24,946 nucleotides of DNA. Origin: a virus. The stretch lies in the IMG/VR virus record IMGVR_UViG_3300025887_000131, positions 1 through 24,946 of that record; one strand, written 5' to 3'. Below the pieces are notes generated by a model. It was not told where the DNA came from, ran no database searches, and saw nothing but the letters and a program-made list of their open reading frames with translations. Shown piece by piece: positions 814-19,913 of the stretch; positions within the stretch are counted from its first letter, which is position 1; every line of letters begins with the position of its first letter. A program made the position numbers and the translations under genes.

Positions 814-2661
814 TTAATAATTTCCCACTTTAGTTATAGAGAATGTGTGATACAGACCATTTGATAAAAACGTAGGAGATGTTATTCCGCTAGCATACGA
901 TCTTATTGTAACTATCTGCCCAGCCAATAAAGGTACGATATATGGAGTCGCGTATGCATACGAAGTACCTACAGAAGTACTATATGTGTCCGATCCAGTT
1001 CTATTCTTCTCTACACCATCTATAAAGATGGACATAATAATACTAGCCGATGCTGAAAATGTTCCAGCAATTGCGGTAGAAGCTCCAATAAGATAACTTC
1101 CACTAACTGGTACAGTGTAACTACCTCCAGAATAGGCATTATGTGAATCTTTTACCTTCGTACCATAAGTTATAGTATTAAATGCAGCACCCAAGCTTCC
1201 AGTTGGAGGTGCTCCAGTATATGAAGCTGTAACACTTTCAGAAGCAGCTATTTGTGCTGGACCTGAGATGCGTTCGATTTGAAAAGTAGCGTTTGTACCA
1301 TATGATCCTGTATTGTTTGTTGCTCTTATATCTATTGTTTGTCCAGCAGTTGCATAAACTTTTCCTGATCCAGAGAACCCTTGGTTAACTACTTCTTGAT
1401 AAGCAATTATCGGTCTATTGTACCCAGCAGTCGTATTTGCATTTACTGAAATATAATAAACTGTTCCAGCAGCAGCAGTCCCATCGCCTGTGGCATTTAT
1501 ATTATAAAACCCAGTTACTGGGGCAGTATATTTTCCAGTAACGGTTGAATATGCTCCGTGAGTATCTAGTCCTACAGTAGAATAAATTATAGGATTGTTT
1601 GCAGTAGCTGAAGTAGATCCGCCACCAATTAAAGCAGCCACCACTCTAGCGTCAGCGTCTTGACTAAATACTTGAGAAGAAGACCATCCTTGGATAGGTA
1701 CTTCCATATCAATTGTAATAGTTTGTCCAGCAGCCCATGTTAGAGGATGAGTAGTATCCCAACTTGCTTCTACTCCAGTATATGTAGTGGTCGCACCTTC
1801 CATTTGGAAATTCGTCATACTTGTATTTGCTCGAACGATTGCCGCTGTATAATAACCAGCACCACTTCCTCCTGTTGCAATACCAACGCGCTGATAGGCA
1901 TCTGTATTAATGAATCCAACCGTATTTGTTGTATAATCCGCAGATAATCCAGAGGGCAGGGAGAATTGAAAAACCCCTATTGGTAAAGAAGATCCTACAA
2001 TCAGAGTACCTTTAATTTTAACTCTAGAGCCAACTCTATTATAAGATAAAGCTGCTGTACCATTTCCAAAATTAGATAATATAGGGGTATACACAATTGG
2101 ATCAGTCACTGCACTTCCATATAATTTAGACTCTGGCCCTAATATGAAGTTATCGAACTTCACCGTATAGGCTAAAGCCGAAGTGCTTCCAGTATGAATA
2201 ATTAATCTATATGAAGTTGAGTTACTAGAAGTCTGGAATTCTACTGCAAATTTCTCAATGATCCCCGAGTTCTTAATTAAGTACGGAGCTGGTTGAATTA
2301 ATACCGCGTTGGTCACATCGTAAATCCAGACGCTCATGTCATTGTCCGCGTAAGTTCCAGATGCAATCAAATATTCAAATGAACATTGAAGCACTTTCCC
2401 CTTGTCAGCGTTGTCAATTGAGAAGGCGTATGAAAATCCCTCTCCCTGTCTATTTACCGCCGTCTTAGTCCAAAGGAAGTTTGTGTTTTTTCTTATTGCC
2501 GAATCTGTTTGAGCAACAAACGTCGACGCAGGAGAGCCTCCTGTACCATCGACTGGAGAGGTTCCGGCAGCGTCAGCGTAAGTAGTCCATAGACCAAGCT
2601 TCGTTCCGTCTCTCGCTTCAATATAGTTCTTAGTGCCCTGAATAGTAGGATCAAAACTCAT
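814..2661 (-). CDS. Tail fibre / receptor-binding protein with two C1q-like domains
   Basis: I place the start at the ATG at 2661 (MSFDPTIQGT), which has GGAG six bases upstream and overlaps the previous stop as ATGA; a TTG at 2673 is also open. The protein is about 615 residues. Residues 10-178 look like a carbohydrate-binding-type jelly roll ending in FDNFILGP. Residues 180-325 form a beta-rich middle. Two tandem C1q/TNF-like jelly rolls follow (about 345-466 and 480-615), each with the family's Y-x-A/V-P-V-[TS]-G-x-Y strand (YTAPVTGFY and YTVPVSGSY) and a late AGQ-[TI]-[IV] strand. C1q-like domains form trimeric heads in phage fibres and bind surface ligands, so this is the best candidate for host recognition. 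It directly follows another fibre gene; the two may form one composite fibre. Confidence 0.8.
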   Translation of the reverse strand: MSFDPTIQGTKNYIEARDGTKLGLWTTYADAAGTSPVDGTGGSPASTFVAQTDSAIRKNTNFLWTKTAVNRQGEGFSYAFSIDNADKGKVLQCSFEYLIASGTYADNDMSVWIYDVTNAVLIQPAPYLIKNSGIIEKFAVEFQTSSNSTSYRLIIHTGSTSALAYTVKFDNFILGPESKLYGSAVTDPIVYTPILSNFGNGTAALSYNRVGSRVKIKGTLIVGSSLPIGVFQFSLPSGLSADYTTNTVGFINTDAYQRVGIATGGSGAGYYTAAIVRANTSMTNFQMEGATTTYTGVEASWDTTHPLTWAAGQTITIDMEVPIQGWSSSQVFSQDADARVVAALIGGGSTSATANNPIIYSTVGLDTHGAYSTVTGKYTAPVTGFYNINATGDGTAAAGTVYYISVNANTTAGYNRPIIAYQEVVNQGFSGSGKVYATAGQTIDIRATNNTGSYGTNATFQIERISGPAQIAASESVTASYTGAPPTGSLGAAFNTITYGTKVKDSHNAYSGGSYTVPVSGSYLIGASTAIAGTFSASASIIMSIFIDGVEKNRTGSDTYSTSVGTSYAYATPYIVPLLAGQIVTIRSYASGITSPTFLSNGLYHTFSITKVGNY

Positions 2662-4181
2662 AACACGCTCCAATTTGTTCCATTTGATACAAGAGTAAGT
2701 GATTGATACTGAGATATAAGTGGTGCTGTCAGTGCCCCATCAATTGTCTGTGAAGAGGTTGTCGCAATAGTAACCGAGTTAACAGATGAATCCGTTTTTT
2801 TAATATTGAACACTTTTCCAGAAAACCCAACCGCCGTTGGAAGAGTAATTGTAATCGCTCCTGAAGTTGCATCGCCAAGAATAACATCATCTGAATAAAG
2901 CCCAGTATAGTTTGCAGTTTTTGTTGAAACTGCCATTGTGTTTGTTGTTGTCCAAGCAGTGCCGTTATAAACACTTAAACTTGCCATATCGGTATCGTAA
3001 ACGACCATGCCGGCTGTAGGACTGGCCACACTGTTCTTCTGGGCCGTGGTCATGCGAGGAGGCATGAAGGCTTTAGTGGTTGACGTAACGTCAAGAATTG
3101 CGTTGGCATTTGGAGTAGCAACACCAATTCCCACGTTACCACCTGTAAAAATACCAGCGTAGTTATTTGTGGCACCAGTCGTAGCCGCTATATTTAGCCC
3201 GTAAGAATTAGTTACGTTGGTGACCGCTGAAGTTGGAATATAAAGCGCACTTGAATTTGTTATTGTTGCATTCGTCCCACCGTTAGATGGGCCATCAATT
3301 GCCAGCGCCGCCGCATTTGTTAAAGTTGAAGCTCCGACAAACGAATGAGACGAGGGGGTGATTCTAAAGTCTCTTTGTAAAGCAAGAGCCCCAGTAGCAT
3401 GTTGACGGGTTTGTCCGATGTTAAAATAAGTATGAGGTGCTTCGGTACTAGCGGTTAAAGAAGTGTCCGCCACGCCCGTTACTAAAAACCTAGCCGTTGA
3501 GGCGGAAGTACTTGCCGCCTGAGTAAACGCATTTTGTATTTGAGTTGTGGTAAACTTGTTAGCCCCACCAACCTGAAGGCTTAATTGCCCACTGCCCTTA
3601 GTGGTTATGTTCATTGCTTCGTTTGTTCCTGATGATATGGTTCCCAGCAACACTCCAGAACCAGCAGAGTTTCCAGTAACCTTTAACCCAGTTGCTGCCG
3701 ATGCCGTTGACGAATCAATTTGTAAAACCGAGTTAGTTGTACCGTTTGGCCCAACCGCAAGCGAGTTGGCACTATTTGATGTAATCGTTAGCGCATCGGT
3801 AAAGTTCTTGAGCCCAGCGATTGACTGTGCCGTTGTTAAGTCAACAAAGTTTTGAGTTGCTGAACCTGTACCACCGTTAGCGATTGGAAGAATTCCTGTT
3901 ACGTCTGTTGTTAAGCTTACAGGGCCAGTCTGGTTCTTTGTCCAATCAGTATTAAGAGCACCTGTCTTTAAGTATAAATCACCAGTCGTCGTATACATCG
4001 CTATTGATCCTTTAGGGGCAGTCAATCCAGCGGTTGGTATAGTTGACGTGGTTAAAATCTTAGCAACGCCAAATAGGTCAATATTAGGCTTTAAAGTCTT
4101 AACGTCGCTCCCACTAAAGATAACCGCATCGGCGAAGATCAAGGTGGGAATTATCAAGAGCGTGATTAAGTATTTTTTCAT
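2658..4181 (-). CDS. Tail fibre protein with N-terminal Sec signal peptide
   Basis: This 507-residue protein begins MKK plus a hydrophobic core (YLITLLIIPTLIF) and an alanine cleavage region near residues 17-19, so it looks exported. The start is well supported by AGGAT nine to ten bases upstream. Residues 94-125 contain fibre hallmarks: GILPIANGGTG and LTTAQSIAGLKNF. Residues 140-350 are Ser/Thr/Asn-rich beta repeats. Residues about 345-410 carry the GNVGIG-x-ATPNA and PRMTTAQ motifs common in fibre and surface proteins, and the C-terminal beta domain has GAITITLP and SLTLVSNGTNW. In fibres such parts form trimeric shafts. A Sec signal on a phage fibre is unusual, because virions normally assemble in the cytoplasm. 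Its stop overlaps the next fibre gene's start. Confidence 0.8.
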   Translation of the reverse strand: MKKYLITLLIIPTLIFADAVIFSGSDVKTLKPNIDLFGVAKILTTSTIPTAGLTAPKGSIAMYTTTGDLYLKTGALNTDWTKNQTGPVSLTTDVTGILPIANGGTGSATQNFVDLTTAQSIAGLKNFTDALTITSNSANSLAVGPNGTTNSVLQIDSSTASAATGLKVTGNSAGSGVLLGTISSGTNEAMNITTKGSGQLSLQVGGANKFTTTQIQNAFTQAASTSASTARFLVTGVADTSLTASTEAPHTYFNIGQTRQHATGALALQRDFRITPSSHSFVGASTLTNAAALAIDGPSNGGTNATITNSSALYIPTSAVTNVTNSYGLNIAATTGATNNYAGIFTGGNVGIGVATPNANAILDVTSTTKAFMPPRMTTAQKNSVASPTAGMVVYDTDMASLSVYNGTAWTTTNTMAVSTKTANYTGLYSDDVILGDATSGAITITLPTAVGFSGKVFNIKKTDSSVNSVTIATTSSQTIDGALTAPLISQYQSLTLVSNGTNWSVL

Positions 4182-9223: not shown

Positions 9224-9552
9224 TCGGCTACCTCTAATTTGTATGTACTTAATGGGCCTGCAATAGACGCAAGCTCAAAGCCATAATTTTCAATTGTGTG
9301 TTTTGATAAAGCGACGCCGTTTGCTCGGTCGTCTGTCATGCAGTAAACCGTTTTCACACCGGCTTGCTTGCATATTTCAAAGACCTGATCGGCTAAAAAG
9401 TATCCGTGTCCTGATTGACGATATTCTTTCATGACAAAGTAATCGTTAATCATGCAATCAGGGAAGTCTATACGATAAATAATAAAGCCTTTATCTGTCT
9501 TTATGACGTCAAGATTTTCTCGTTCTTTAATGTAAAGTTCGTATAGGTTCAC
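9208..9552 (-). CDS. GNAT-family N-acetyltransferase
   Basis: The 114-residue protein is a short GNAT fold. Residues 40-55 (VMKEYRQSGHGYFLAD) hold the acetyl-CoA pyrophosphate loop R-x-x-G-x-G (R45, G48, G50) after a beta4-type strand. A following strand KTVYCMTDD and a final YGFEL also match the family. These enzymes move an acetyl group from acetyl-CoA to an amine; the substrate here is unknown. It starts at GTG, touching the previous stop (TAGTG), with GGCGG upstream. Small GNAT proteins occur in the tail module of some podoviruses and could modify a virion or host protein. The N-terminal strands are reduced, so this is near the minimum size for the fold. Confidence 0.8.
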   Translation of the reverse strand: MNLYELYIKERENLDVIKTDKGFIIYRIDFPDCMINDYFVMKEYRQSGHGYFLADQVFEICKQAGVKTVYCMTDDRANGVALSKHTIENYGFELASIAGPLSTYKLEVAEWEKL

Positions 9553-10463
9553 TAAAACCGCCCGCTACAACTAATGCTCCCAAATGTATTCGTAAAGGAT
9601 CCGCCGACAGTAGTCACACATTGAAGTGTTGAGGTTGTTGTTCCTGGATAGTCACAACTAAACTGTCCCACGTTTGCCGCCGCTGTACCGGAAGCCACAC
9701 TTCCTACGCATGAAATGGATGTAAAGTTTTTAACAAGGCCGATATTATATATCCCAGTAGAGCCGCCATAAGAAACTCCTGCTGCAGGATACTCTGGGTT
9801 ATAAATAAAACAATCCCCCGTTGTGCATGTATTTTGCGCAGTTGTTCCACCGTATACAATTGAAAACTTAAAAGCGTCAGAACCAATAAAACCATTGCTG
9901 ACCCAATTGTCTAGTGATGCTTTATCGATGGCACTGGCATCATTATTTACAAATCTTCCCAATACTTTATTAGAAGAGGCATCATAGCCGTCTATTCCAG
10001 GCGCAGTTGTAGAAATTAAAAGATTAAGCGTTGTTCCGGTTGATCCTGTTTTTGCATAGACGTAATAAACAGTTCCGGCAACCTCAGAAGAACACCCAGA
10101 GCATCCCCATGTCACGTTGTTTGTCGTGGTTGTTTTAACAAAAGATCCATTAACAGATAGAATACATTTCCCAACCTGAACTGTGTTTCCATCGACGTAG
10201 GCAAGGGCGCACCCTTGATGAATTCCATTAGTAACAGTTGCGAAATCTGTAGCGCTTAAAGCAGATGCCTCGAGAGTTCCGTCAGTAACACAACCACCGT
10301 CAAGCGAGTTAACCTTTGATACGAGTTGATTAAGGTCAGCATTGAGAGCAGATGAGGTTAATGTCTGCCCGGTCGAGTAATTCGTCCTACTAGTTGAACT
10401 GCACGTTGCCGCGAATATTTGATTGGATATAAAAAATGTTAATAAGAGGATAAAGTATTTCAT
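9552..10463 (-). CDS. Cysteine-rich secreted-type protein in the tail module
   Basis: The 303-residue product starts with a Sec signal peptide: MKYFILLLTFFISNQIFA, with likely cleavage before ATCSS. The mature part is Ser/Thr/Gly-rich and beta-type and holds 12 cysteines, an even number, several in close pairs (WGCSGC, NTCTTGDC). That pattern fits oxidative folding in the periplasm. Residues 30-60 (TGQTLTSSALNADLNQL) resemble segments found near the start of phage fibre or collar proteins. It overlaps the nozzle gene by ATGA and precedes the acetyltransferase. No family is certain; a fibre-like or surface-exposed protein is likely. A lipoprotein is less likely because no L-x-[AG]-C lipobox is present. 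Confidence 0.75.
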   Translation of the reverse strand: MKYFILLLTFFISNQIFAATCSSTSRTNYSTGQTLTSSALNADLNQLVSKVNSLDGGCVTDGTLEASALSATDFATVTNGIHQGCALAYVDGNTVQVGKCILSVNGSFVKTTTTNNVTWGCSGCSSEVAGTVYYVYAKTGSTGTTLNLLISTTAPGIDGYDASSNKVLGRFVNNDASAIDKASLDNWVSNGFIGSDAFKFSIVYGGTTAQNTCTTGDCFIYNPEYPAAGVSYGGSTGIYNIGLVKNFTSISCVGSVASGTAAANVGQFSCDYPGTTTSTLQCVTTVGGSFTNTFGSISCSGRF

Positions 10464-12355
10464 ATTGCAAATTCCCCATTTTTATTTAGCTCGACCTGCG
10501 CAGAAATAAGACCAATGTTTCCACTGATAACGTCTTGTTCAAAAGATATTAACAACGCTTCGCCTGTCAAACTAAGGTCTCCCTTTACTGTAACTGGCAC
10601 CCTATCATCGCCCAAACTGTCAATGTCTAATTGTGACACGTCCAGGATAAATGATTCACTGATATTCGGGAACTCGTACGTTAGCGAGTCGAATGGATCG
10701 ACGTTGTAACTCGGATAAGCCTTTACGGTAATATCGTTATCGCTTGCAAGCGCCTTAACTGTCAGTGTTTTGAAGTTGTATGAAGTTGATTCGTCGTCTG
10801 GTTGAATATATGAAAGTTTCATTATTGCAGGAATTGATAGCTGATTAAGAGCTGTGTCCTCGTCATACCTACTATTCTTGATCGAATAACTAAAGATAAA
10901 ACCGGAGTCGTCTCCGATAAAAACTGCCTGGTTCCCGCTGTCGTCTTCGCTGTCACATGCAGAAACAAGGTTGTATTTAAAATCAAAGATCCTAAAGCCA
11001 CCGATTTTCTCACTGTAAACATAGGCCTTGCGAATGCTTGTATCTTGCCCTTCCGATAGGAAGGTTAAGTATTGCGAGTTGATTGTATAATAAGCACTGA
11101 AAACATTGGCGTAGTTATCTGCATTGATCTCTTTTGTCCATCCGGTACGGGTGAAGATGTCATCAATATCGCCATCGCCTAAGGTAAAAGGAGTGTTGTC
11201 CGCTTTTCTAACCAGTGTACCTCTTTTGATTACTCTCCAACCGTGGTCAGATAGGAAGTAAATCAATCCGTTTCCAATTCTAATAGTATCAGCAGAAACG
11301 CACCCAATGTTGTCATCAAGAACCGCCTGGGCAGCAGTGCCACCTATTTCTGAGTAAATCGTTATTGAGTTTCTCTTAAAAACTACCAAATAAGGAGACA
11401 ACGAAGCATCATCAAAGAACCCAGTAGCAAGCCCAGTTATGGGCCCTTGTCCAGCGGCCAAAAGAACTCCAGGTACGTCGGCATTGTCATAAGCATCTGG
11501 CAAATACGCCTTTGAAAAGAAGACTTCGCTCGGATAAGTTGAGTTCCCCGCATAGGCAATCTTGTCACCAAATACGGTTAAGTATTTACCTCCTCCTGAC
11601 TCTGGAGGGAAATTAGTCGTTGGTGGCGTTATCGTACTCGTGGACATCGCCGTAATGTTGGCAGATGTCGTTCCTAGGTTTATCTCTGTTGAATATAGAA
11701 ACGATCCATTTGCAGTCACGTTCTTTATGTAAATTCTAACCTTATCAATTGAAAGGTTTGTTGCTGATGCTGGGATTGATGTTATTGCAATAGTCTTATT
11801 AACCACTGTCGCTGCAACCGTCGCCGTTTCATTGTAGTTTGATTCAAAACCAGTCGCAGTCGAATAAAAGGTAATTGCAACCTGATAAGTCGTTCCATTA
11901 ACCAAAGACCCGCCCGCTGCAATTGTAGCAGTTGCCGTTGATGGAAGGGCTTGCCCCAATGGACTAAAGTTCGTTCCATCGTAGAAAAATAGGCCATCGC
12001 TGCCTAATGCAATGATGTGCCTATCTATAAACGTAACTGCTCGGTGTTTTACTCCTGCAGTTAATCCCGTCTTGAGGGATGTATGCGCCCCTGTGGGGCT
12101 TATTTTATATAAAACTGTCCCTACTTTTGCCAACCGGTATGCTGTGCCTGTGCCTTTTTTGAAAAAAGACTGGCTTGTAACGGAGCCACCTAAAGAAGTG
12201 TCGTTATATCTCTTGAGTCCGTATCTAGTTTCCTCGATTCCTTCATTGCTTATAATGTTTCGACAGTCAGACAACTTGTCTTGGTCAAGGATACGGTAAC
12301 TAATTGGCTTATTTAGCTTGCGATAGTCTTTAATCGCTCGTTTTCTAAGTGTCAC
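10460..12355 (-). CDS. Tail nozzle / stabilisation protein candidate
   Basis: The 631-residue protein has repeated short beta strands of propeller type (HIIALGSDGLFFYDG, GNGLIYFLSDHGWRVI, NQAVFIGDDSGFIFSYS). This fits the podovirus nozzle/stabilisation proteins (P22 gp10, T7 gp12), which close the DNA channel below the adaptor. Residues 141-240 are a separate beta-sandwich insert starting ATIAAGGSLVNGTTY. The segment YLVVFKRNSITIYSE (about residues 310-330) is typical of this group in my experience. The gene starts at GTG directly after the adaptor stop (TAGGTG); there is no ATG nearby. It is followed by the Cys-rich protein with an ATGA overlap. Confidence 0.75.
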   Translation of the reverse strand: MTLRKRAIKDYRKLNKPISYRILDQDKLSDCRNIISNEGIEETRYGLKRYNDTSLGGSVTSQSFFKKGTGTAYRLAKVGTVLYKISPTGAHTSLKTGLTAGVKHRAVTFIDRHIIALGSDGLFFYDGTNFSPLGQALPSTATATIAAGGSLVNGTTYQVAITFYSTATGFESNYNETATVAATVVNKTIAITSIPASATNLSIDKVRIYIKNVTANGSFLYSTEINLGTTSANITAMSTSTITPPTTNFPPESGGGKYLTVFGDKIAYAGNSTYPSEVFFSKAYLPDAYDNADVPGVLLAAGQGPITGLATGFFDDASLSPYLVVFKRNSITIYSEIGGTAAQAVLDDNIGCVSADTIRIGNGLIYFLSDHGWRVIKRGTLVRKADNTPFTLGDGDIDDIFTRTGWTKEINADNYANVFSAYYTINSQYLTFLSEGQDTSIRKAYVYSEKIGGFRIFDFKYNLVSACDSEDDSGNQAVFIGDDSGFIFSYSIKNSRYDEDTALNQLSIPAIMKLSYIQPDDESTSYNFKTLTVKALASDNDITVKAYPSYNVDPFDSLTYEFPNISESFILDVSQLDIDSLGDDRVPVTVKGDLSLTGEALLISFEQDVISGNIGLISAQVELNKNGEFAI

Positions 12356-13351
12356 CTAGCACACTCTCTTAACGGACATCGCTTGCCCGCCCGATCTTCC
12401 AAATATGCCCTTGGCTTCGTCTCTTATTCGTACGTAATTGTTCTTTTTAGACTCTTGCCCGTCTTGATCCTTATCCTCATAACCCTTCCAAACAACTCCG
12501 GCATCCAAAACCTCTTTTAGTGAAGGGTGAAGTTGGATTGCCCGGTCTCCATCGGCAAAGATGCGAGATGGGATTCTATAAACCCAGTACGAAAGCGTAT
12601 AGGTTGAGCTTGGTCGTGGGTAAATAAAGATTTTATCGTCTGTCGTTCTTGCGTAATAGTAAGGAGTGCCTGTGCTTGTTAATCCTGGGTCATATTTCAG
12701 AATATCATCCAAAGAATTCTCACTTAAGCAGTTTCCACTCCCTTCGATGATCGGATCGCCTGACATGCATGATACCAGGGCGTATTCTGGAGGCTCTATT
12801 AGCGAGTTTGCGGCACTTGAGATCGTGAGGGTTGTGGTTATGTTGTCTTCAATCGTAGTGTGCAGGAAATAGCTTCCAGTGCCTTCCTTTAAATAGACTC
12901 TTCTGTGGATAACGGTTGGCTTTACGGTTGCCGTCCCATCATAGAGATCAATGTCTGTTAAACTTAGCGAAAGGTTAGGGGTTGCCGTTGTAACAGATGT
13001 CGATGCTGTTGATGGCTCACTCTCCAATGATTCAACTTCTCTTCCCGATTCATCAAATAGGACAAATGTGACTTTAACTCTAAAAGCTGTGTTGTCTGTC
13101 AAAGAACCGCCGTTTGCAGTTGCCACGGTCGCCCTTGTTGGTATTTGTGGGGCTATTGATATCTCTTGGTCGCCTGAAACAACCTGTTTCTTCATTTTAA
13201 ATCTAAGAAACGGCCATTTGTGTGAGCTAGCAATGTCCTTTTGGATGTCGTTTATCCATGAAATAACTCTTGCCTTTGCAGCGTTGTCTCTGAATCCGTA
13301 CTTGCGCACAAATTCATTTTGTAATGCCTCACCATTGTAGGTTGAACTCAT
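12356..13351 (-). CDS. Head-tail adaptor (connector) protein candidate
   Basis: I choose the ATG at 13351 (MSSTYNGEAL), which has AGGAAG six bases upstream, over a GTG at 13372. The product is 331 residues. Residues 5-50 are helical with VISWINDIQKDIASSHKWPFL, a signature I associate with podovirus adaptor proteins (T7 gp11, P22 gp4 type) that dock under the portal. Residues 75-182 are an inserted beta-sandwich (fibronectin-III-like). Residues 230-290 hold YYYARTTDDKIFIYPRP and a C-terminal helix-rich part. Its position before the nozzle gene agrees. It overlaps the O-antigen ligase-like gene by 23 bases. Confidence 0.75.
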   Translation of the reverse strand: MSSTYNGEALQNEFVRKYGFRDNAAKARVISWINDIQKDIASSHKWPFLRFKMKKQVVSGDQEISIAPQIPTRATVATANGGSLTDNTAFRVKVTFVLFDESGREVESLESEPSTASTSVTTATPNLSLSLTDIDLYDGTATVKPTVIHRRVYLKEGTGSYFLHTTIEDNITTTLTISSAANSLIEPPEYALVSCMSGDPIIEGSGNCLSENSLDDILKYDPGLTSTGTPYYYARTTDDKIFIYPRPSSTYTLSYWVYRIPSRIFADGDRAIQLHPSLKEVLDAGVVWKGYEDKDQDGQESKKNNYVRIRDEAKGIFGRSGGQAMSVKRVC

Positions 13352-14447
13352 TATTTTCTTCCTTTGCCGCACACACTGCGACCACTACCAATATAATAAT
13401 CATCATTGTTGATTGCTGAACAGAGAAGTGCCCATAGGCGTTGCAGAATGCTGCGAATACGATGCTTGAAAAGACGCGATACTTGTCATCCTTAATTGCG
13501 TACTTGTAGAGGAAATAGAGGAACGTAATTAACCCCACTAGTCCAAAAGCCGTTACGATAGACAAGAAGCCACTATGCTCTTGAACGACGGTTGCGCCCT
13601 TGTATGTGATCTTTTGATCTGCATACCAGCCGACTCCGTTACCAATAAGCCATGCCTTCATGCTTAACTTGCTTATTAATTCCTTCCATATCACCAATCG
13701 CCCACTGTCCATGCCATTCATGCCAGTAAAAGATACTGTTAACATCGAAACAATCGATAAGAGATAAAGCCATTTCTTCTTAATAAGGTTTCCCTTGTAG
13801 TAATAGACGAACCCAGCGAGTCCTGTGAGGATTCCTAGTGATGAACCTGTTGAACATAGTGCCGCTATTGCTATTGGCAGTGCCCACCTCCATCCCTTAC
13901 GATTAAAAGCGATCAAAGAAATGCCTAAGTAGCCCCCAGACATGTTATTGCTTCCAAAAGTTCCACTTGATAACCCAAACTCAACGGCAACCTCACCGAT
14001 TATTTGAATATCATCATGGAAAAGCTTCATTACTGCATACTCTGGAGAGTAACCAAGCCCATTTAAGAAAATAACTAGTGCCTGAATCAGTGAACCGATA
14101 CAAATAGCGTTCAGTATCCATGAAAAGTACTTGGCTTCAAAGCACTCATAGAACCGAACAAAGAAGAAGATGCCTGCGCACAAGTAGAATCCATGAAACA
14201 TTACATTGATCGACTCAACCATGTGCTGATTAATCACTAGAAAAAGAAACGCGATTGCTATCGTAACCCACGCCTTTAAAGGCAGCTCTCTTTTAGGGGA
14301 GTTAAACATTATACCTATTAAGCCACATACCATTGCAAATAAGTTATCTTTCGACGTCCGATTCATATCGACAGAGGCGAGCCTATTGTAAACAGGCAAC
14401 AAGGCAATCAGTAAGCAGGTTAAGCCGTGTGCAATCGCGCTTCTCAT
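13329..14447 (-). CDS. O-antigen ligase / polymerase (WaaL/Wzy-C)-like membrane protein
   Basis: The 372-residue protein has about ten hydrophobic segments. Residues 162-177 (GTFGSNNMSGGYLGIS) match the G-x-F-x-N-x-N region of O-antigen ligases. A large loop follows with SGRLVIWKEL (R250), then H291-S292, nine residues, and G302-L-V-G305, a full match to the WaaL motif H[NSQ]x9Gxx[GTV]. Family members join or polymerise undecaprenyl-linked glycans at the periplasmic side of the inner membrane. It is placed between head and adaptor genes, which is unusual. Inference: it changes host surface polysaccharide during infection or in a lysogen, blocking superinfection or re-adsorption to debris. The ATG at 14447 has AGGAC upstream; the gene overlaps the adaptor gene by 23 bases. 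Confidence 0.85.
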   Translation of the reverse strand: MRSAIAHGLTCLLIALLPVYNRLASVDMNRTSKDNLFAMVCGLIGIMFNSPKRELPLKAWVTIAIAFLFLVINQHMVESINVMFHGFYLCAGIFFFVRFYECFEAKYFSWILNAICIGSLIQALVIFLNGLGYSPEYAVMKLFHDDIQIIGEVAVEFGLSSGTFGSNNMSGGYLGISLIAFNRKGWRWALPIAIAALCSTGSSLGILTGLAGFVYYYKGNLIKKKWLYLLSIVSMLTVSFTGMNGMDSGRLVIWKELISKLSMKAWLIGNGVGWYADQKITYKGATVVQEHSGFLSIVTAFGLVGLITFLYFLYKYAIKDDKYRVFSSIVFAAFCNAYGHFSVQQSTMMIIILVVVAVCAAKEENNEFNLQW

Positions 14448-14451
14448 TTAA

Positions 14452-14697
14452 TTATAGTCCTACAACCATGATTGTGCCGACGTCGTTAGACGTTACACTT
14501 GCAACAGTTATTGCAGATCCACTTTTTGTAACAAGACCTTGAGCTTCGCTAGTTCCATTGTTAAATGAAACATGGTCGATAGTTCCAAGGCCGGCACTAA
14601 AAGTTCCTGTAGTAACAGATGCGAAATCCAATTCCCAAACTTCCACTCTCATGTTTCCCATAAGAGACTTTCTTTTAAGTGTCGCTGAAAATGCCAT
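14452..14697 (-). CDS. Small head/neck structural protein
   Basis: The 81-residue protein begins MAFSATLKRKSLMGNMRVEVWELDF and continues as a small beta-type fold with a Gly/Ser/Thr-rich middle and hydrophobic end (GTIMVVGL). I recall similar short proteins following capsid genes in uncultured tailed phages, where they are taken as head decoration or neck proteins; that is memory, not proof. It has an AAGGAG ribosome site five bases before the ATG, indicating good expression. It lies between the signal-peptide head protein and the O-antigen ligase-like gene. Confidence 0.75.
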   Translation of the reverse strand: MAFSATLKRKSLMGNMRVEVWELDFASVTTGTFSAGLGTIDHVSFNNGTSEAQGLVTKSGSAITVASVTSNDVGTIMVVGL

Positions 14698-14706
14698 AAA
14701 TACTCC

Positions 14707-15204
14707 TTATAGCTTAATGTAAACTTGTACTGAACCAGATGCAGCAGCAGCATCGTAGAAAATCCCACCTGGAACTTCAGTAGCAACGTCAGCGGCGCGA
14801 GCAGCTAAGTAACCAGCGTTAACTGAAGACATGTAGAATCTTTTCCCAGCAACCGCTGAACCAGCACCAACATCAAAAAGAGCTGAGTCTAGTTTACCGT
14901 TAGTTTGACAAGCACAGATTGCTCCAACAGCACAAGCAGTTTCCATAATACAAAGTGGAGATAATCCAGCAGTTGCAGAAATGATAACTGAAGCACCATC
15001 GTCTGCAGTAAGGTCAAGAGTAACTGCTGAACCAGCAGGAATGCTTACTGAGTGAGAGTTCTTTACGTTGATTGATTGTTTTTCAATTGAGTTTGCGTCA
15101 ACTGTACCGTCGTAGCTTAAAGCAGCTCCACGTCCAATTGTTCCGTTGAATGCGTGAACATTCATTGAAACTAGTGCGAATAAACTTATTAATACCTTTT
15201 TCAT
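14707..15204 (-). CDS. Head-module protein with Sec signal peptide and four cysteines
   Basis: This gene follows the major capsid gene. The 165-residue product begins MKKVLISLFALVSMNVHA, an apparent Sec signal peptide (V-x-A cleavage site at residue 18), and the start is fixed by AGGAG five bases upstream. The mature part resembles capsid cement proteins of the DUF2190 kind: SVSIPAGSAVTL, a Gly/Ala-rich core, and GKRFYMSSVNAGYLAA. Residues about 86-98 (CIMETACAVGAICAC) hold four closely spaced cysteines. Cement proteins bind the outside of capsids in the cytoplasm, so a signal peptide is unexpected. It could be an exported decoy, a membrane-held protein, or a cement protein with an N-terminus that only mimics a signal. 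Confidence 0.75.
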   Translation of the reverse strand: MKKVLISLFALVSMNVHAFNGTIGRGAALSYDGTVDANSIEKQSINVKNSHSVSIPAGSAVTLDLTADDGASVIISATAGLSPLCIMETACAVGAICACQTNGKLDSALFDVGAGSAVAGKRFYMSSVNAGYLAARAADVATEVPGGIFYDAAAASGSVQVYIKL

Positions 15205-15220
15205 TTGTTCTCCTAAAGTT

Positions 15221-15239
15221 AAAGGGGGATTGCTCCCCC
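15221..15239 (-). terminator. GNRA-loop hairpin after the capsid gene (attenuator-like)
   Basis: Read on the minus strand: stem GGGGGA, loop GCAA, stem TCCCCC, then TTTAACTTT. The six-pair stem is perfect and GCAA is a stable GNRA tetraloop. The T tract is interrupted, so termination would be partial. It lies between the capsid stop and the ribosome binding site of the next gene. It could lower downstream transcription or protect the 3' end of capsid mRNA. Confidence 0.6.
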
Positions 15240-15244
15240 GTTTA

Positions 15245-16216
15245 TTATGTTGTTGGCGTGATATCTTTTAACCAACCTTGGTATCTCAAGACTGAACATG
15301 CAAAAACACCTTTGTAAAAAAGACGTTGTAACATTGCATCTTGAGTTTCTAGGTCTTCTTTTTGAACGCGTTTCATTTTGTACTCAGGGTGAGCATAAAG
15401 ACGAACGTATTTCTCATTCAAGAAGATCATTGAAGCGTCTGGAGCTAGGTTGTCTACGATATGATCGATTCCAGAGTAAACTAGTGTGTTCCCACCGTGT
15501 CCAAGATTATCAAGAGTAGATTCTCTTGTCGTTCTTTGGTGAGGCTTAAGAAGCTCGATGAAAGAGTTCATTACACCTTGTCTCATGATAACAAGAGTTG
15601 GTTTTTCGTCACCTTCAGAACACCCACCCAAAGTAGCTTGGTGAAGAGCTGAAGTAACTGCTCTATTTGTTCCAGAGTTAGAGTTTACATAAGCAACGTG
15701 AACAGAAACGTCTGTACTAGTTACGCCACCGTAATTAACTGCAGATGACTTTAAGAATGCTTGAACACCAACAAATTGCTTAGTTGTTAGAGCACCTGTT
15801 GCCGCTGTACCATCAGAGAAAATCCCTTTAGTAAAACGTTGTCTCATTGCCATTTCCATCATCTTAAGTCTTTCAGAGACAAGGTTAAGACGAGCTTCTT
15901 TTCCTGAGTTTCTAGCAAGGTCACGGTGAGTGATTACTAGTGATTCTTGAAGTTCGATTAGGTCGAACGAAAGCTCAGTGAATGGGTCGTACATGTCTAA
16001 AGATAAAGACTCTGCACCTTGGTAGTAAGATCCGTTAGTATCAAGATCATCAACATAGTTGAATGGGAAAGTTTTCTTTTCCCCTGAATAGATACCTTCG
16101 TTTTTCTTAAGTCTGTTTAAATAAGCGTGGTTCTTGAAAATAGCGTCTTTTACTCCGCCTTCAGCATCGATACCTTTTACGGTTAATGCTTGTACTTGTC
16201 CTACTGATAATGACAT
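15245..16216 (-). CDS. Major capsid protein
   Basis: This 323-residue protein is encoded right after the portal and scaffold genes, in the standard position for the shell protein. It starts MSLSVGQVQALTVKG, has an acidic/polar N-terminal arm (INDIRECT evidence: LKKNEGIYSGEKKTFPF near residues 36-52), a long helix rich in Glu, Arg and Met (RLKMMEMAMRQRFTKGIF) typical of the HK97-fold spine region, and a C-terminal domain ending YKGVFACSVLRYQGWL. No propeptide or protease gene is seen, in agreement with P22-style assembly by scaffold. The ribosome site is strong (AGGAG six bases upstream), as expected for the most abundant virion protein. Confidence 0.85.
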   Translation of the reverse strand: MSLSVGQVQALTVKGIDAEGGVKDAIFKNHAYLNRLKKNEGIYSGEKKTFPFNYVDDLDTNGSYYQGAESLSLDMYDPFTELSFDLIELQESLVITHRDLARNSGKEARLNLVSERLKMMEMAMRQRFTKGIFSDGTAATGALTTKQFVGVQAFLKSSAVNYGGVTSTDVSVHVAYVNSNSGTNRAVTSALHQATLGGCSEGDEKPTLVIMRQGVMNSFIELLKPHQRTTRESTLDNLGHGGNTLVYSGIDHIVDNLAPDASMIFLNEKYVRLYAHPEYKMKRVQKEDLETQDAMLQRLFYKGVFACSVLRYQGWLKDITPTT

Positions 16217-16231
16217 TTGATACTCCTGTTA

Positions 16232-17218
16232 TTAAATTGAATCCCTAAGCATACTTTCATAGTCTCCGGCCTTAAAGACCATGTCTTGTTTTTCGCCCCT
16301 AGAACTAGATGAAACGCCTGATCGTTTAAGTGCGCTTGCGTTTGCTTTGGATTTAGTTGCCAAAAGCTTCTGATAACTCTGATTGGCCTTAGCTATTTCT
16401 TTTCCATAAGCAGCGTAAAATGCATCCTCAACGCTCATTTTTCCTGTTGCATCTGCTGACCATACTCCCTTGACCTTTTCCCAATCCGCTTTCACTCCTA
16501 GCTTTGATAAACTTGCTGCGACTGTTGCCTGGACTTGTCCAAGCTCACTCTCCCAACCGTTTTTAATCGACGCTAGTTCTTCGGTCTGCTTGCTCTTCCC
16601 GAAGTTGTTAAATTGCTCGCGCAGTTCTTTAATCTGCCCTTCGTATTTAGCAATTACTGGTTGCTGCATCTTGAATTGTTGTAGTTCTTGGTTGTAAGCA
16701 CTTTGAATAAAGGCAAATAGTTCAGGATCTTGAGTCTGCCATTTAGTAAGCATACTCGTAATGATGTTATTGTCATTAACTACATCACTGATCTCTTGTT
16801 CTTTCTGGGCAAGTGCCTGCTCTGTTTCCTTGAATTTGACCTCTTTTTGAGCAAACTCTTCGGTTTTTAGCCTCACTTCTTCCGCGTGGGCCATAGTTTT
16901 CTTGGTGTAATCGAATCCTTTTTGAATGATCTCTTTCAACTGGTCAGGAGAATTAATCTTAATAGGCAATCCATTGTGAATGGCACCCATTTGGTTGATT
17001 TGTTCAATCGCCTGTGCAACGGCTTCGTTGTTTACAGCCTCTTGTCCTACCTTGTTTAGGATATCTCTGGGGTCTGCTTCCTCAGTGTTTTCTGATGGGT
17101 TCGTTTCCGCTTGTCCATCCACATCGGAGACCTCAGTTGAAACATCATCGGTTCCGCTGTCTTCAGCGGTTAACTCGTTAGCTGCTTCCATTAGGTCGAA
17201 TACTTTTTCTTCTGACAT
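16232..17218 (-). CDS. Capsid scaffolding protein candidate
   Basis: The 328-residue protein has an acidic, disordered N-terminus (residues 1-55, rich in Glu, Asp, Ser and Thr), predicted coiled coils at about 108-150 and 160-215 (Gln/Glu/Lys heptads), and a Ser/Arg-rich basic segment near 295-312 (LKRSGVSSSSRGEKQD). These parts and the location between portal and capsid genes match phage scaffolding proteins, which direct shell assembly and then leave the prohead. In P22 a basic C-terminal helix-turn-helix contacts the coat; the basic region here may do the same (inference). No protease motif is seen. The ATG has AGGGA about eight bases upstream. Confidence 0.8.
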   Translation of the reverse strand: MSEEKVFDLMEAANELTAEDSGTDDVSTEVSDVDGQAETNPSENTEEADPRDILNKVGQEAVNNEAVAQAIEQINQMGAIHNGLPIKINSPDQLKEIIQKGFDYTKKTMAHAEEVRLKTEEFAQKEVKFKETEQALAQKEQEISDVVNDNNIITSMLTKWQTQDPELFAFIQSAYNQELQQFKMQQPVIAKYEGQIKELREQFNNFGKSKQTEELASIKNGWESELGQVQATVAASLSKLGVKADWEKVKGVWSADATGKMSVEDAFYAAYGKEIAKANQSYQKLLATKSKANASALKRSGVSSSSRGEKQDMVFKAGDYESMLRDSI

Positions 17219-17220
17219 TC

Positions 17221-19419
17221 TTATAGTCCCTGGTTATTTAGGTTGGCCGGAATGGCTCCTTCATTTGCCTGTGGAACGCTCATTAAATCATTTGGAACAA
17301 TGAGAGAGTTGATAGAGGCTTCTTTCGCCTGCTTTTCAAAGACCTTTCTTTCGTCGCCACTTAAAAGATCGACCGAGGCACTTCTGCCTAAGTCCATAGC
17401 TCCTTTAAGTTTAATGTTTTGTTCTTGTAGCTGTGCAAGTTGGTCTTCGTAGTTCGCTTGCATAGTTTGAGCTTGTTCTTGTATCTGTTGCATTTGAGCT
17501 GCTTGTTGATCTCTTTGAGCAAGAGACTCGATGATCATGTCCTTTTTAGGAATGTCTGCAACTTTTAGGAATTCTTGGATTGTTATATGTCCGCCGTTAA
17601 GTAGCATCATATAGACTGCATTAACCGCGTCTTTATCCACTCCAGCCATTGAGCCAGGAGAGATTTCGACGATGTAATCTAGGTCTTCGACTTCGAGCGG
17701 GTTATAGACAACCTCTTCGATCTTAGTTGAATCGCTTCTAAATCTTAAAACCTTTTCTTCTGTCCAGTTATTAACGATTAGGCTTGCAGTTAATGAGGCA
17801 AGTCGCTTCATTGAATAATATTCTAAGACTCTGTTCTTTAACCTGATTCGTCCGACTGCTTGAGTTTGGATCTTTTGGACAGTAATGCCCGAAACATTCC
17901 CTTGTGGCATACTGCCATTCATGGTTGCTTCGTTTTGCCCCGAGATCATTTCCATTGTCTGTTGATCAAGGGTTTTTCTGCGCTCTAGTTGAGGCGAAAC
18001 TTGCCCTGGTTCAAGACGTCTTAACTCAGTACCACGTTTCTTGAGAACGACGATTCCAGGGGCATTTGTGAGCTTCTCAGCATCAACTTCCGCCTCTGTG
18101 TCTCCGATCCAACCTGGATTACTTGTTAGCCTTAAGCCTTCAAGCTCTCTAAAGTCCATATCATTAAGCGTTCTTTGAGCGTCAATGATGTTTTTAATCT
18201 CACCGAACCCATAGATAGTTTCGTCTTTGTAGCAATAGAATGGAACGACCGGAAGCATCCCATTTTCTTCTGGATTGGCACCGTCATATAAAATAACGCC
18301 TTCGATCCACTTGATAACTCTCCAACCATCTTCAAACTTAGGCTCTTGCCCAGTAGGATTGATCTTCTCCATCTCCTCGTGTTCTTCGAGGTGGTTTTCA
18401 ATCATCTTAACGATCAATAGACCTTTGTTAAGTTGCTCTGCTGCTTGAGGGTTTCCTTGTAGAATCTCATCAACCTTCGCACTCGCCTCTTCATAAGAAG
18501 CTTCTGGAGGTAGTCCAACGACAGCAAGCAACTCAGCTTTTTGAGCATAATGAGCTGCCTTGTGTTCCTTGTGGTTTTCCCACTTAGTGATATCAGGAGA
18601 CTCAGCGTTTTTGAATTGCTCTGTCTCTTCTGTTATTTCTTCCTGAGTTTCCTCTGGTTCAATGTTCTTTAACGAGTAATCCCTAATCCAGGTCTCATTG
18701 TAATTAAGAATGTCCTTTGCTTTGTATGCCTTAGGTTTTCCCATGGCAGCGTCACGCCCAGATATATCTCTTCTTTCGAAGTTATCATCCCTAGAGTCGT
18801 CAACCATAGACTTGCCGCCCTTGATTGCTTTAATCTCCTTAGCAAATTCCGGCCATGAGCGAGCTAGCGCTTCTCTTCGCATAGGAATTTCTAGGTGCAT
18901 CTTTTCAGCGTGATCAAGAGAGCCGACGTTTCCGTCTAGCCAAACATATTTCCAAGGGAGTTGTTTATACTCAACCTTGCCGTCGCCGTTGTCAGCATCG
19001 GGATTATAAAAAGCGTAAATATAACCAGGAGCACTCATAAGGGCCGATCTCATTAGAGATGGCAGTAATAGTTGAAGATTTTGGTCTTGATAAACCCATC
19101 TAATAGATTTCTCGAGCATGTCAGCTTGAGGTTGTTTTGAGCTTTGAGAAGCAGTGAGGAGCGTTCCTGGCATGGCGTCCGTAAGAATAGGGACTTCGCT
19201 TTCTATGATCTTAAAAATGTGGTTTTTGACGGTCTTGACGTTTTCACCCGTCTTGTGTTGTTTGCCATAATAGGCATCATCATATTGCTCCCATTCTTTT
19301 TCAAACGGCTTGCGGTATGACTGCAGTTCCTTTTTGGCTTCTTTTGCAATCTTTAATGATTCCTCAGTCGAAACCATACTCATATCATCGTCGGGCTTTT
19401 TTGTGTCTTCATTTTGCAT
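17221..19419 (-). CDS. Portal protein, P22-like
   Basis: I choose the ATG at 19419 (MQNEDTKKPDD) over an upstream GTG at 19458; neither has a clear ribosome binding site. The product is about 732 residues, close to P22 gp1 (725). The N-terminal part (QSYRKPFEKEWEQYDDAYYG, about residues 35-54 from this start) and the later ETWIRDY, GFGEIKNIIDAQRTLNDM and QNEATMNGSMPQGNVSG segments resemble P22-type portals. The C-terminal 120 residues include a Gln-rich coiled coil (AQMQQIQEQAQTMQ) that may form a barrel inside the capsid. The portal forms a dodecamer at one vertex, binds terminase for packaging, and then the adaptor. It starts the head operon, downstream of a short intergenic space shared with a divergent gene. 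Confidence 0.88.
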   Translation of the reverse strand: MQNEDTKKPDDDMSMVSTEESLKIAKEAKKELQSYRKPFEKEWEQYDDAYYGKQHKTGENVKTVKNHIFKIIESEVPILTDAMPGTLLTASQSSKQPQADMLEKSIRWVYQDQNLQLLLPSLMRSALMSAPGYIYAFYNPDADNGDGKVEYKQLPWKYVWLDGNVGSLDHAEKMHLEIPMRREALARSWPEFAKEIKAIKGGKSMVDDSRDDNFERRDISGRDAAMGKPKAYKAKDILNYNETWIRDYSLKNIEPEETQEEITEETEQFKNAESPDITKWENHKEHKAAHYAQKAELLAVVGLPPEASYEEASAKVDEILQGNPQAAEQLNKGLLIVKMIENHLEEHEEMEKINPTGQEPKFEDGWRVIKWIEGVILYDGANPEENGMLPVVPFYCYKDETIYGFGEIKNIIDAQRTLNDMDFRELEGLRLTSNPGWIGDTEAEVDAEKLTNAPGIVVLKKRGTELRRLEPGQVSPQLERRKTLDQQTMEMISGQNEATMNGSMPQGNVSGITVQKIQTQAVGRIRLKNRVLEYYSMKRLASLTASLIVNNWTEEKVLRFRSDSTKIEEVVYNPLEVEDLDYIVEISPGSMAGVDKDAVNAVYMMLLNGGHITIQEFLKVADIPKKDMIIESLAQRDQQAAQMQQIQEQAQTMQANYEDQLAQLQEQNIKLKGAMDLGRSASVDLLSGDERKVFEKQAKEASINSLIVPNDLMSVPQANEGAIPANLNNQGL

Positions 19420-19443
19420 ATCTTTAAAGGTAAGATTGAGGGG

Positions 19444-19449
19444 TACAAT
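19444..19449 (+). promoter_or_regulatory. Possible -10 element (TACAAT) for the plus-strand gene
   Basis: TACAAT matches five of six bases of the sigma-70 -10 consensus and lies 27 bases before the ATG of the only plus-strand gene. There is no good -35 box at 16-18 bases upstream and no TGn extension, so support is weak. It overlaps the upstream leader of the portal gene on the opposite strand. Confidence 0.25.
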
Positions 19450-19475
19450 GCACAACACATATTCGGGAAATCGTA

Positions 19476-19913
19476 ATGAGTGAACTAGAAGGATTATTTG
19501 AGTTTGAATTACCAGATGGCGCTAAGGTTGAGATGAGTATTCATCGAGCGAGATCGCTTGGATGCAAAAACATCACGAAGAGATGCGACGAGATTGTTGA
19601 GTACTATAAATCCAAGGCGAAAAAAAAACACAAGAAAGATGGCTTTGTTCCTGGTTGGCAAGAAAATATTCGTATGTATATTTCATGTCCGTTCCAGTAC
19701 CGGAGGGCGCTGAAGGAATTAGGACTAGTCGAGATCGGGAACGATTCTACGCCCCAAGACTCGACGAAGACATCGAACCCTTTTAGCAACGATGCGATGA
19801 TTAAGGCGGCTATTGACTCTGGTGTTTACTTATCAGGTAGAGAGATCGATGCGCTTAAGTCAGGTGACTACTTTAAGGACTTACCAGTCGTAGATGAAGC
19901 CAGCAACGATTGA
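19476..19913 (+). CDS. Lone plus-strand gene, unknown function
   Basis: The 145-residue product looks like a real protein. Residues 8-21 (FEFELPDGAKVEM) form a beta hairpin, residues 22-55 are basic and helical (RARSLGCKNITKRCDEIV then a Lys-rich run), residues 57-88 read FVPGWQENIRMYISCPFQYR and KELGLVEIG, and the rest is acidic and polar. I associate this style with an unnamed phage protein family near terminase and portal genes, but can give no function. The charge suggests nucleic-acid contact. It is divergent from the portal gene and convergent with the small membrane gene, overlapping its end by 33 bases. The ribosome site is weak. A run of nine A at 19620-19628 lies in the Lys-rich part. 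Confidence 0.65.
   Translation: MSELEGLFEFELPDGAKVEMSIHRARSLGCKNITKRCDEIVEYYKSKAKKKHKKDGFVPGWQENIRMYISCPFQYRRALKELGLVEIGNDSTPQDSTKTSNPFSNDAMIKAAIDSGVYLSGREIDALKSGDYFKDLPVVDEASND

Follow-up and report, generated by a model that had tools for sequence, protein, structure and literature searches.

Decoration proteins of tailed viruses, such as those of HFTV1, Sf11, T1/FCWL1, Pam3, TW1, phi29 (the base of gp8.5) and lambda (gpD), coat heads in the cytoplasm and are made without a signal peptide. The protein described here shares with them a predicted fold and a gene position after the capsid gene, but it departs from them in its conserved signal peptide, its covarying cysteine pairs and its lack of any sequence match in Pfam or PHROGs. 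Virion proteins made as Sec precursors are familiar from Inovirus, whose coat proteins come together in the membrane as the particle is extruded, with no lysis, whereas the phage studied here is a tailed dsDNA phage with a portal, a terminase and a scaffold. No filamentous (Inovirus) morphogenesis genes were found in the window (the whole stretch of DNA analyzed, a linear virus record of 24,946 bases), which carries a portal, an SU10-type capsid protein and an adaptor instead. To our knowledge there is no precedent for a Sec-exported decoration protein in tailed phages, and none was found in the open-access literature searched, which is weak evidence of absence.

Glycan ligases of the PglL/PilO and WaaL types share with a membrane protein encoded near the decoration gene a Wzy_C region, invariant Arg and His residues, a GxG motif and a gene position near a possible protein target; the ligase family of the window differs in being phage-coded, in its length (~360–430 aa) and in having no PglL_A match. 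The Maf flagellin glycosyltransferases, which go with NeuB/PseI, are a protein-glycosylating class that occupies the equivalent slot next to the decoration gene of a sister clade, whose product is not exported, but they are soluble and do not occur in the window's own clade. The mosaic adhesive trimer (MAT) proteins of Bdellovibrio are fibre-like adhesins with a signal peptide (PMC10769870), as is a second fibre of the window, which resembles these predator-bacterium fibres in layout; MAT proteins, however, are cell-coded surface fibres of the predator, whereas the window fibre is phage-coded and no PDB sequence match to it was found.

The minus strand of the window, on which all features below lie unless stated otherwise, carries a podoviral morphogenesis module of the P22/SU10/Mx8 type. 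Along with a terminase, it encodes a P22-type portal (17221–19458; PF16510, E 9.4e-26), a scaffold-like protein recognized by position and synteny (16232–17218; no cysteine here or in 17 homologues), a major capsid protein of the SU10/Mx8 type (15245–16216; PF17236, E 8.6e-8; phrog_9953, E 1.9e-33), an SU10-type adaptor (12356–13372; PF24175, E 6.9e-12) and a head-completion or stabilisation-type protein (10460–12355; phrog_3287, E 2e-4, and synteny). Inside the operon, the plus strand carries a 145-aa ORF (19476–19913), which is conserved in 13 contigs and oriented against the operon in most of them. A host or prophage search with capsid and receptor-binding protein alignments yielded none in 84,980 species, and tblastn against 50,697 phages gave no relatives for the decoration protein, receptor-binding protein, portal or ligase; the host of the phage therefore remains unidentified. 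One capsid alignment, of 13 sequences, was too diverse to serve as a scan query. Bdellovibrionota are a possible host, a guess that rests solely on the MAT-like fibre.

Directly after the major capsid gene lies the gene of a 165-aa protein (14707–15204), with its ATG at 15204 and an AGGAG ribosome-binding site just ahead (15210–15214). The N-terminus, MKKVLISLFALVSMNVHA|FNGT, reads as an 18-residue Sec signal peptide (15151–15204) with a KK n-region, a hydrophobic core and a VHA cleavage site. IMG/VR scans and profile searches gathered 28 distinct signal-bearing homologous forms, 23–99% identical to the window copy. In every one of them the second residue is K or R, a hydrophobic core is present and the signal is 16–23 residues long; position −1 is A (25 forms) or G (3), and position −3 is A, V, S or T. 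The traits of a Sec/SPase I substrate, a basic n-region with a hydrophobic core and small residues at −3 and −1, are thus present in 28 of 28, by rule-based scoring rather than SignalP; one cleavage site (L025) was placed by eye. In homologue pairs with mature parts less than 50% identical, signal identity averages 31%, and the signal property is retained across the family although its letters diverge. All homologues have a ribosome-binding site with 3–7 matching bases at the first ATG. A chance origin of the signal is ruled out by its conservation in all 28 forms, and a mis-called start by that conservation together with the ribosome-binding sites. The rule-based test was passed by 18 of 18 members of the decoration family and by 20 of 21 receptor-binding proteins, and by none of the scaffolds (0/17), portals (0/17), adaptors and stabilisers (0/40), 81-aa proteins, GNAT proteins or terminases; one of 18 capsid proteins passed (that of L033, whose call began at an in-frame start further upstream), as did 24 of 339 other ORFs. 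A pattern scan, the only evidence for it, placed a terminator-like hairpin between the capsid and decoration genes (15224–15239), and a hairpin-like inverted repeat also stands 3′ of the capsid gene in L023, which has no decoration gene.

An AlphaFold2 model of the mature protein, built from a 17-sequence alignment, reached a pLDDT of 88.5, and its best PDB matches (Foldseek, realigned by VIA-align 2) were phage structural proteins, nearly all of them capsid decoration proteins. The closest was that of HFTV1 (Z 14.1, rmsd 2.1, 113 residues), followed by Sf11 (Z 11.5), phi29 gp8.5 (11.0), Pam3 (10.8), TW1 (9.7) and lambda gpD (6.4), with the FCWL1 and T1 decoration proteins also among the matches; the first unrelated chains, of the MoeA type, appeared at Z 4.5 and below. 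The mature part is thus predicted, from a confident model and the fold search, to have a capsid decoration fold. No Pfam or PHROGs family, DUF2190 and other decoration families included, matched the protein at E 0.1, and PDB sequence searches with profiles of the fibre, the receptor-binding protein and the decoration protein gave nothing useful. In each contig that possesses it, the decoration gene stands directly 3′ of the capsid gene. Absence of an export signal is a usual, non-defining trait of decoration proteins and does not hold here, the signal peptide being present in 28 of 28. The gene is missing from contigs L070 and L077 and is therefore dispensable; a 75-aa hydrophobic ORF, possibly a remnant, lies in L070 (5672–5899) where the decoration and ligase genes are missing.

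Four cysteines (85, 91, 97 and 99) crowd into codons 85–99 (14908–14952), for which we infer the disulfides C85–C99 and C91–C97 from perfect pairwise covariation. Among 28 aligned mature sequences, the columns of C85 and C99 both hold cysteine in 26 and neither does in two, without a single mixed case (26/0/0/2); the C91 and C97 columns give 17/0/0/11 (Fisher 4.7e-8), a third column pair gives 4/0/0/24, and in a fourth set, found in five sequences, the partner of one column is one or the other of two neighbouring columns. The Fisher values ignore kinship and, with related sequences, are not independent-sample probabilities; the joint losses and gains occurred in several lineages. The mature cysteine count is even in 28 of 28 decoration proteins and in 27 of 27 receptor-binding proteins (2–12), a parity not seen in the capsid, portal and adaptor families. 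Cysteine content is 2.6 per 100 aa in the two signal-bearing families, against 0–0.63 in the capsid, scaffold, portal and adaptor (capsid 0.63, portal 0.33, scaffold 0). Because cysteine pairs are gained and lost together across the 28 sequences, the decoration protein is in all likelihood disulfide-bonded, with two bonds in the window copy and one to three across the family, an inference from sequence alone. We also consider it very probable that this decoration-fold protein is exported and oxidatively folded, where cleavage and location are inferred without experiment. An earlier sequence-only reading had proposed a Sec signal peptide (MKK, core, V-H-A) behind an AGGAG-fixed start, a cement-like mature part and oxidative folding suggested by the four close cysteines. 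All three claims held: the first in the sequence and in 28 of 28 homologues, the second through a confident structure prediction with decoration-fold matches down to lambda gpD, and the third through perfect cysteine covariation. DUF2190, with which it had suggested comparing a structure prediction of the mature part, gave no profile match by sequence.

That reading had also noted two more signal-bearing genes in the module, and both were confirmed. One, at 9552–10463, encodes a 303-aa protein with 12 cysteines, assigned as an exported receptor-binding protein by fold match and homologues, whose N-terminus, MKYFILLLTFFISNQIFA|ATC, includes a signal peptide at 10410–10463. Signal-like N-termini run throughout the family (27 homologues), in which the first ~195 residues are conserved and the C-terminus is variable. 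The model is of lower confidence (pLDDT only 75.7), and matched Bordetella phage Mtd at Z 10.8 over 102 residues, with the cyanophage A-1(L) fibre, lactococcal receptor-binding proteins and a tailspike tip as other matches; the protein meets the criteria for a receptor-binding protein (a receptor-binding or fibre fold, a conserved N-terminus and a variable tip). A gene of this type occurs in each contig covering its site, where no second receptor-binding family is conserved. Judging from predicted folds, the decoration and receptor-binding proteins would be two exported proteins with folds of the particle exterior, unneeded for packaging.

Small signal-peptide proteins of 103–122 aa follow the receptor-binding gene directly in five contigs (L007:13542–13910, L024:11059–11370, L033:11058–11393, L036:2979–3332 and L040:11007–11342). 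The other signal-bearing gene of the window (2658–4181; N-terminus MKKYLITLLIIPTLIFADA|VIF) encodes the second fibre-like protein, of 507 aa and without cysteine; it is an ORF that also occurs in L020 (8352–10157), and parts of it match fibre proteins from many phages. Overlapping its end is the gene of a 619-aa protein with a TTG start (814–2673), whose weak C1q-domain match (PF00386, E 6.7e-4) falls below the cut-off.

Past a conserved 81-aa protein without a signal peptide (14452–14697; cluster 8, 15 contigs), the decoration gene is followed by a Wzy_C-type membrane protein of the WaaL/PglL superfamily, a candidate glycan ligase (13329–14447) that was absent from the sequence-only reading. 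PF04932 was matched at E 0.01 by 13 of 17 homologues (best 2e-12; L066 and L073 lie over the cut-off), and the window copy itself, at 20.4 of 31.7 bits, does not reach it. R250, W254, the GxGxG of 269–273 and H291 are invariant in 26 of 26 distinct sequences, and superfamily membership, by a profile match within the family together with the invariant Arg and His, is met; these two residues seem equivalent, by motif and spacing, to R288/H338 of WaaL and R298/H349 of PglL (PMC3643930). PglL_A (PF15864), the motif specific to PglL, was found in none of the 17 homologues, as is also the case for PilO (PMC3643930), and the ligase profile drew only weak matches to photosystem I subunits from the PDB. 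That the gene co-occurs with the decoration gene is evident by sequence: in complete regions a polytopic Wzy_C protein follows it directly or past the 81-aa gene, except in the L064/L065 lineage, and the two lie side by side or one gene apart in all 26 distinct ligase loci, L011-like contig ends excepted, for which order alone was readable. In a published survey, 21 of 31 PglL genes lay beside or near a pilin gene, their likely target (PMC3643930). L065 carries a signal-bearing decoration gene with no adjoining Wzy_C gene, as does L064, which is cut short, and the ligase is therefore not strictly needed for export. Correlation of pairwise distances with the capsid distance removed was rejected as evidence of decoration–ligase coevolution because it is not specific (partial r 0.18, versus 0.17 for decoration–portal); the ligase covaries at least as well with the receptor-binding protein (0.25).

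In a capsid-protein tree, all exported decoration forms fall into one clade (support 100/99), within which Wzy_C was lost in the lineage of L064 (cut short), L065 and L070; both the decoration and the Wzy_C genes are missing in L070 and L077. The nearest outgroup, L055–L059, has a homologous decoration protein without a signal peptide. Profile-profile comparison (hhalign) of the exported and sister non-exported post-capsid proteins gave E 2.4e-5 over 120 columns at a probability of 75%; no significant match emerged when the exported profile was set against only one cytoplasmic decoration protein. In L055–L059, the position following the decoration gene is occupied by a glycosyltransferase of the Maf type (PF01973, E as low as 8e-24; assigned in L058 by sequence similarity), and NeuB, of the nonulosonic-acid synthase family, occurs in three sister contigs (E down to 1.8e-47). 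Maf enzymes attach such sugars to flagellin (PMC11339370). NeuB and PF01973 lie at 2637–3422 and 11418–12470 in L055, 1632–2387 and 8445–9491 in L056, and 2011–2841 and 8657–9700 in L057. With PF01973 directly after the decoration gene and NeuB present, these three contigs probably carry a capsid-glycosylation cassette. In L062 (10922–14287), downstream of the post-capsid gene lie genes for a 542-aa protein whose N-terminal domain is PF01973 and for a second PF01973 protein (13553–14287). In both clades, then, a protein-glycosylating class of enzyme adjoins the decoration gene: a soluble one in the clade that keeps the protein in the cytoplasm, a membrane-bound one in the clade that exports it. 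This parallel, which the sequence-only reading also lacked, is our main argument for glycosylation and is one of synteny only. The acceptor cannot be read from sequence, and we consider it an evenly balanced question whether the Wzy_C neighbour glycosylates the decoration protein.

We propose that the decoration protein is made as a Sec precursor, would cross the inner membrane and lose its 18-residue signal, and would fold in the periplasm with disulfides, and that the receptor-binding protein of the same module would take the same route. Heads would be packaged in the cytoplasm as usual, and the exported outer proteins would join head and tail when lysis mixes the compartments. The Wzy_C protein, from a superfamily active at the periplasmic face, would probably take a lipid-linked glycan of the host and attach it to the decoration protein once exported. 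The conserved signal and the covarying cysteine pairs are shown by sequence, as are the decoration fold, a prediction, and the ligase gene's co-occurrence; that the signal is cleaved, that the protein reaches the virion, that it does so at lysis and that it is glycosylated are inferences. Head assembly in tailed phages is cytoplasmic, which counts against the proposal; late addition to finished heads is known for T4 Hoc and Soc and for the P22 tailspike. As a whole, covering export, late joining and glycosylation by the neighbour, we favor this explanation by a narrow margin. Given export, membership of the decoration protein in the virion is likely, although inferred without a virion proteome.

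The sequence-only reading had not decided between an exported decoy and a coat added outside the cytoplasm. On the first view, the exported decoration and receptor-binding-like proteins would not be virion parts; they would work in the periplasm or beyond the cell, blocking or masking receptors (superinfection exclusion) or serving as decoys set free by lysis, and Wzy_C would alter O-antigen for the same purpose. This remains possible: export is well supported, the decoration gene can be dispensed with in L070 and L077, and the ligase covaries more with the receptor-binding protein than with the portal and scaffold. Phage-coded O-antigen polymerases are known to change receptors, as in P. aeruginosa phage D3. 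Against it stand the capsid decoration fold in the canonical post-capsid slot of each contig having the gene, the non-exported homologue of sister phages in the same slot, and the constant presence of a receptor-binding-type gene at its site without a conserved substitute family. Because the signal sits on a homologue of the sister phages' cytoplasmic decoration protein, in the canonical slot, and is shared by the receptor-binding protein, we favor a coat protein over a decoy, but the choice is not proven, and an envelope-modifying role for the exported proteins also cannot be excluded.

Other rivals concern single steps. The hydrophobic N-terminus might remain uncleaved and tether the decoration protein to the inner membrane, where heads would dock or mature; the segment itself is shown and its cleavage only inferred, but the small −1 and −3 residues in 28 of 28 and the length of 16–23 residues are SPase I traits that an anchor does not need, and the disulfide covariation points to folding in the oxidising compartment, remote from the head, so that we regard a tether as unlikely. 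Still less credible is that translation truly starts at an internal ATG of the signal, so that the product stays in the cytoplasm, or that the protein comes in two versions, an exported one and one destined for the head. A Met does occur inside the signal after position 5 in 20 of 28 homologues, but its position is not fixed and a ribosome-binding site there is rare, whereas the first ATG always has one, and a cytoplasmic form leaves the cysteine pairs unexplained. Finally, Wzy_C might be an unrelated accessory gene, for instance for serotype conversion, that lies nearby by chance, with export serving only disulfides and stability. Only the glycosylation step is at stake in this rival, which can stand alongside the remainder of our proposal. 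The exported protein without a ligase in L065, the nonspecific distance correlation, the unreadable acceptor specificity and the unmatched PglL_A speak for it; the ligase's place at most one gene from the decoration gene in 26 loci (contig ends aside), their joint absence from L070 and L077, and the protein-glycosylating class in the same slot of the sister clade speak against it, and we are slightly inclined to doubt it.

The two-compartment explanation that we favor predicts a mature N-terminus at residue 19, the disulfides C85–C99 and C91–C97, and ligase-dependent glycopeptides. If it is true, the completion of a virion can be divided among compartments and tied to lysis, and tailed phages would gain disulfide-stabilised, possibly host-glycan-coated capsids, which bears on particle stability. 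A bolder reading, which we hold to be less likely than not, is that after export the outer layer and the receptor-binding protein would undergo oxidation and glycosylation in the periplasm, with lipid-linked sugars of the host, and meet at lysis a head assembled and packaged in the cytoplasm, while the sister clade would glycosylate in the cytoplasm via Maf and NeuB; if so, this phage family would record a change of compartment.
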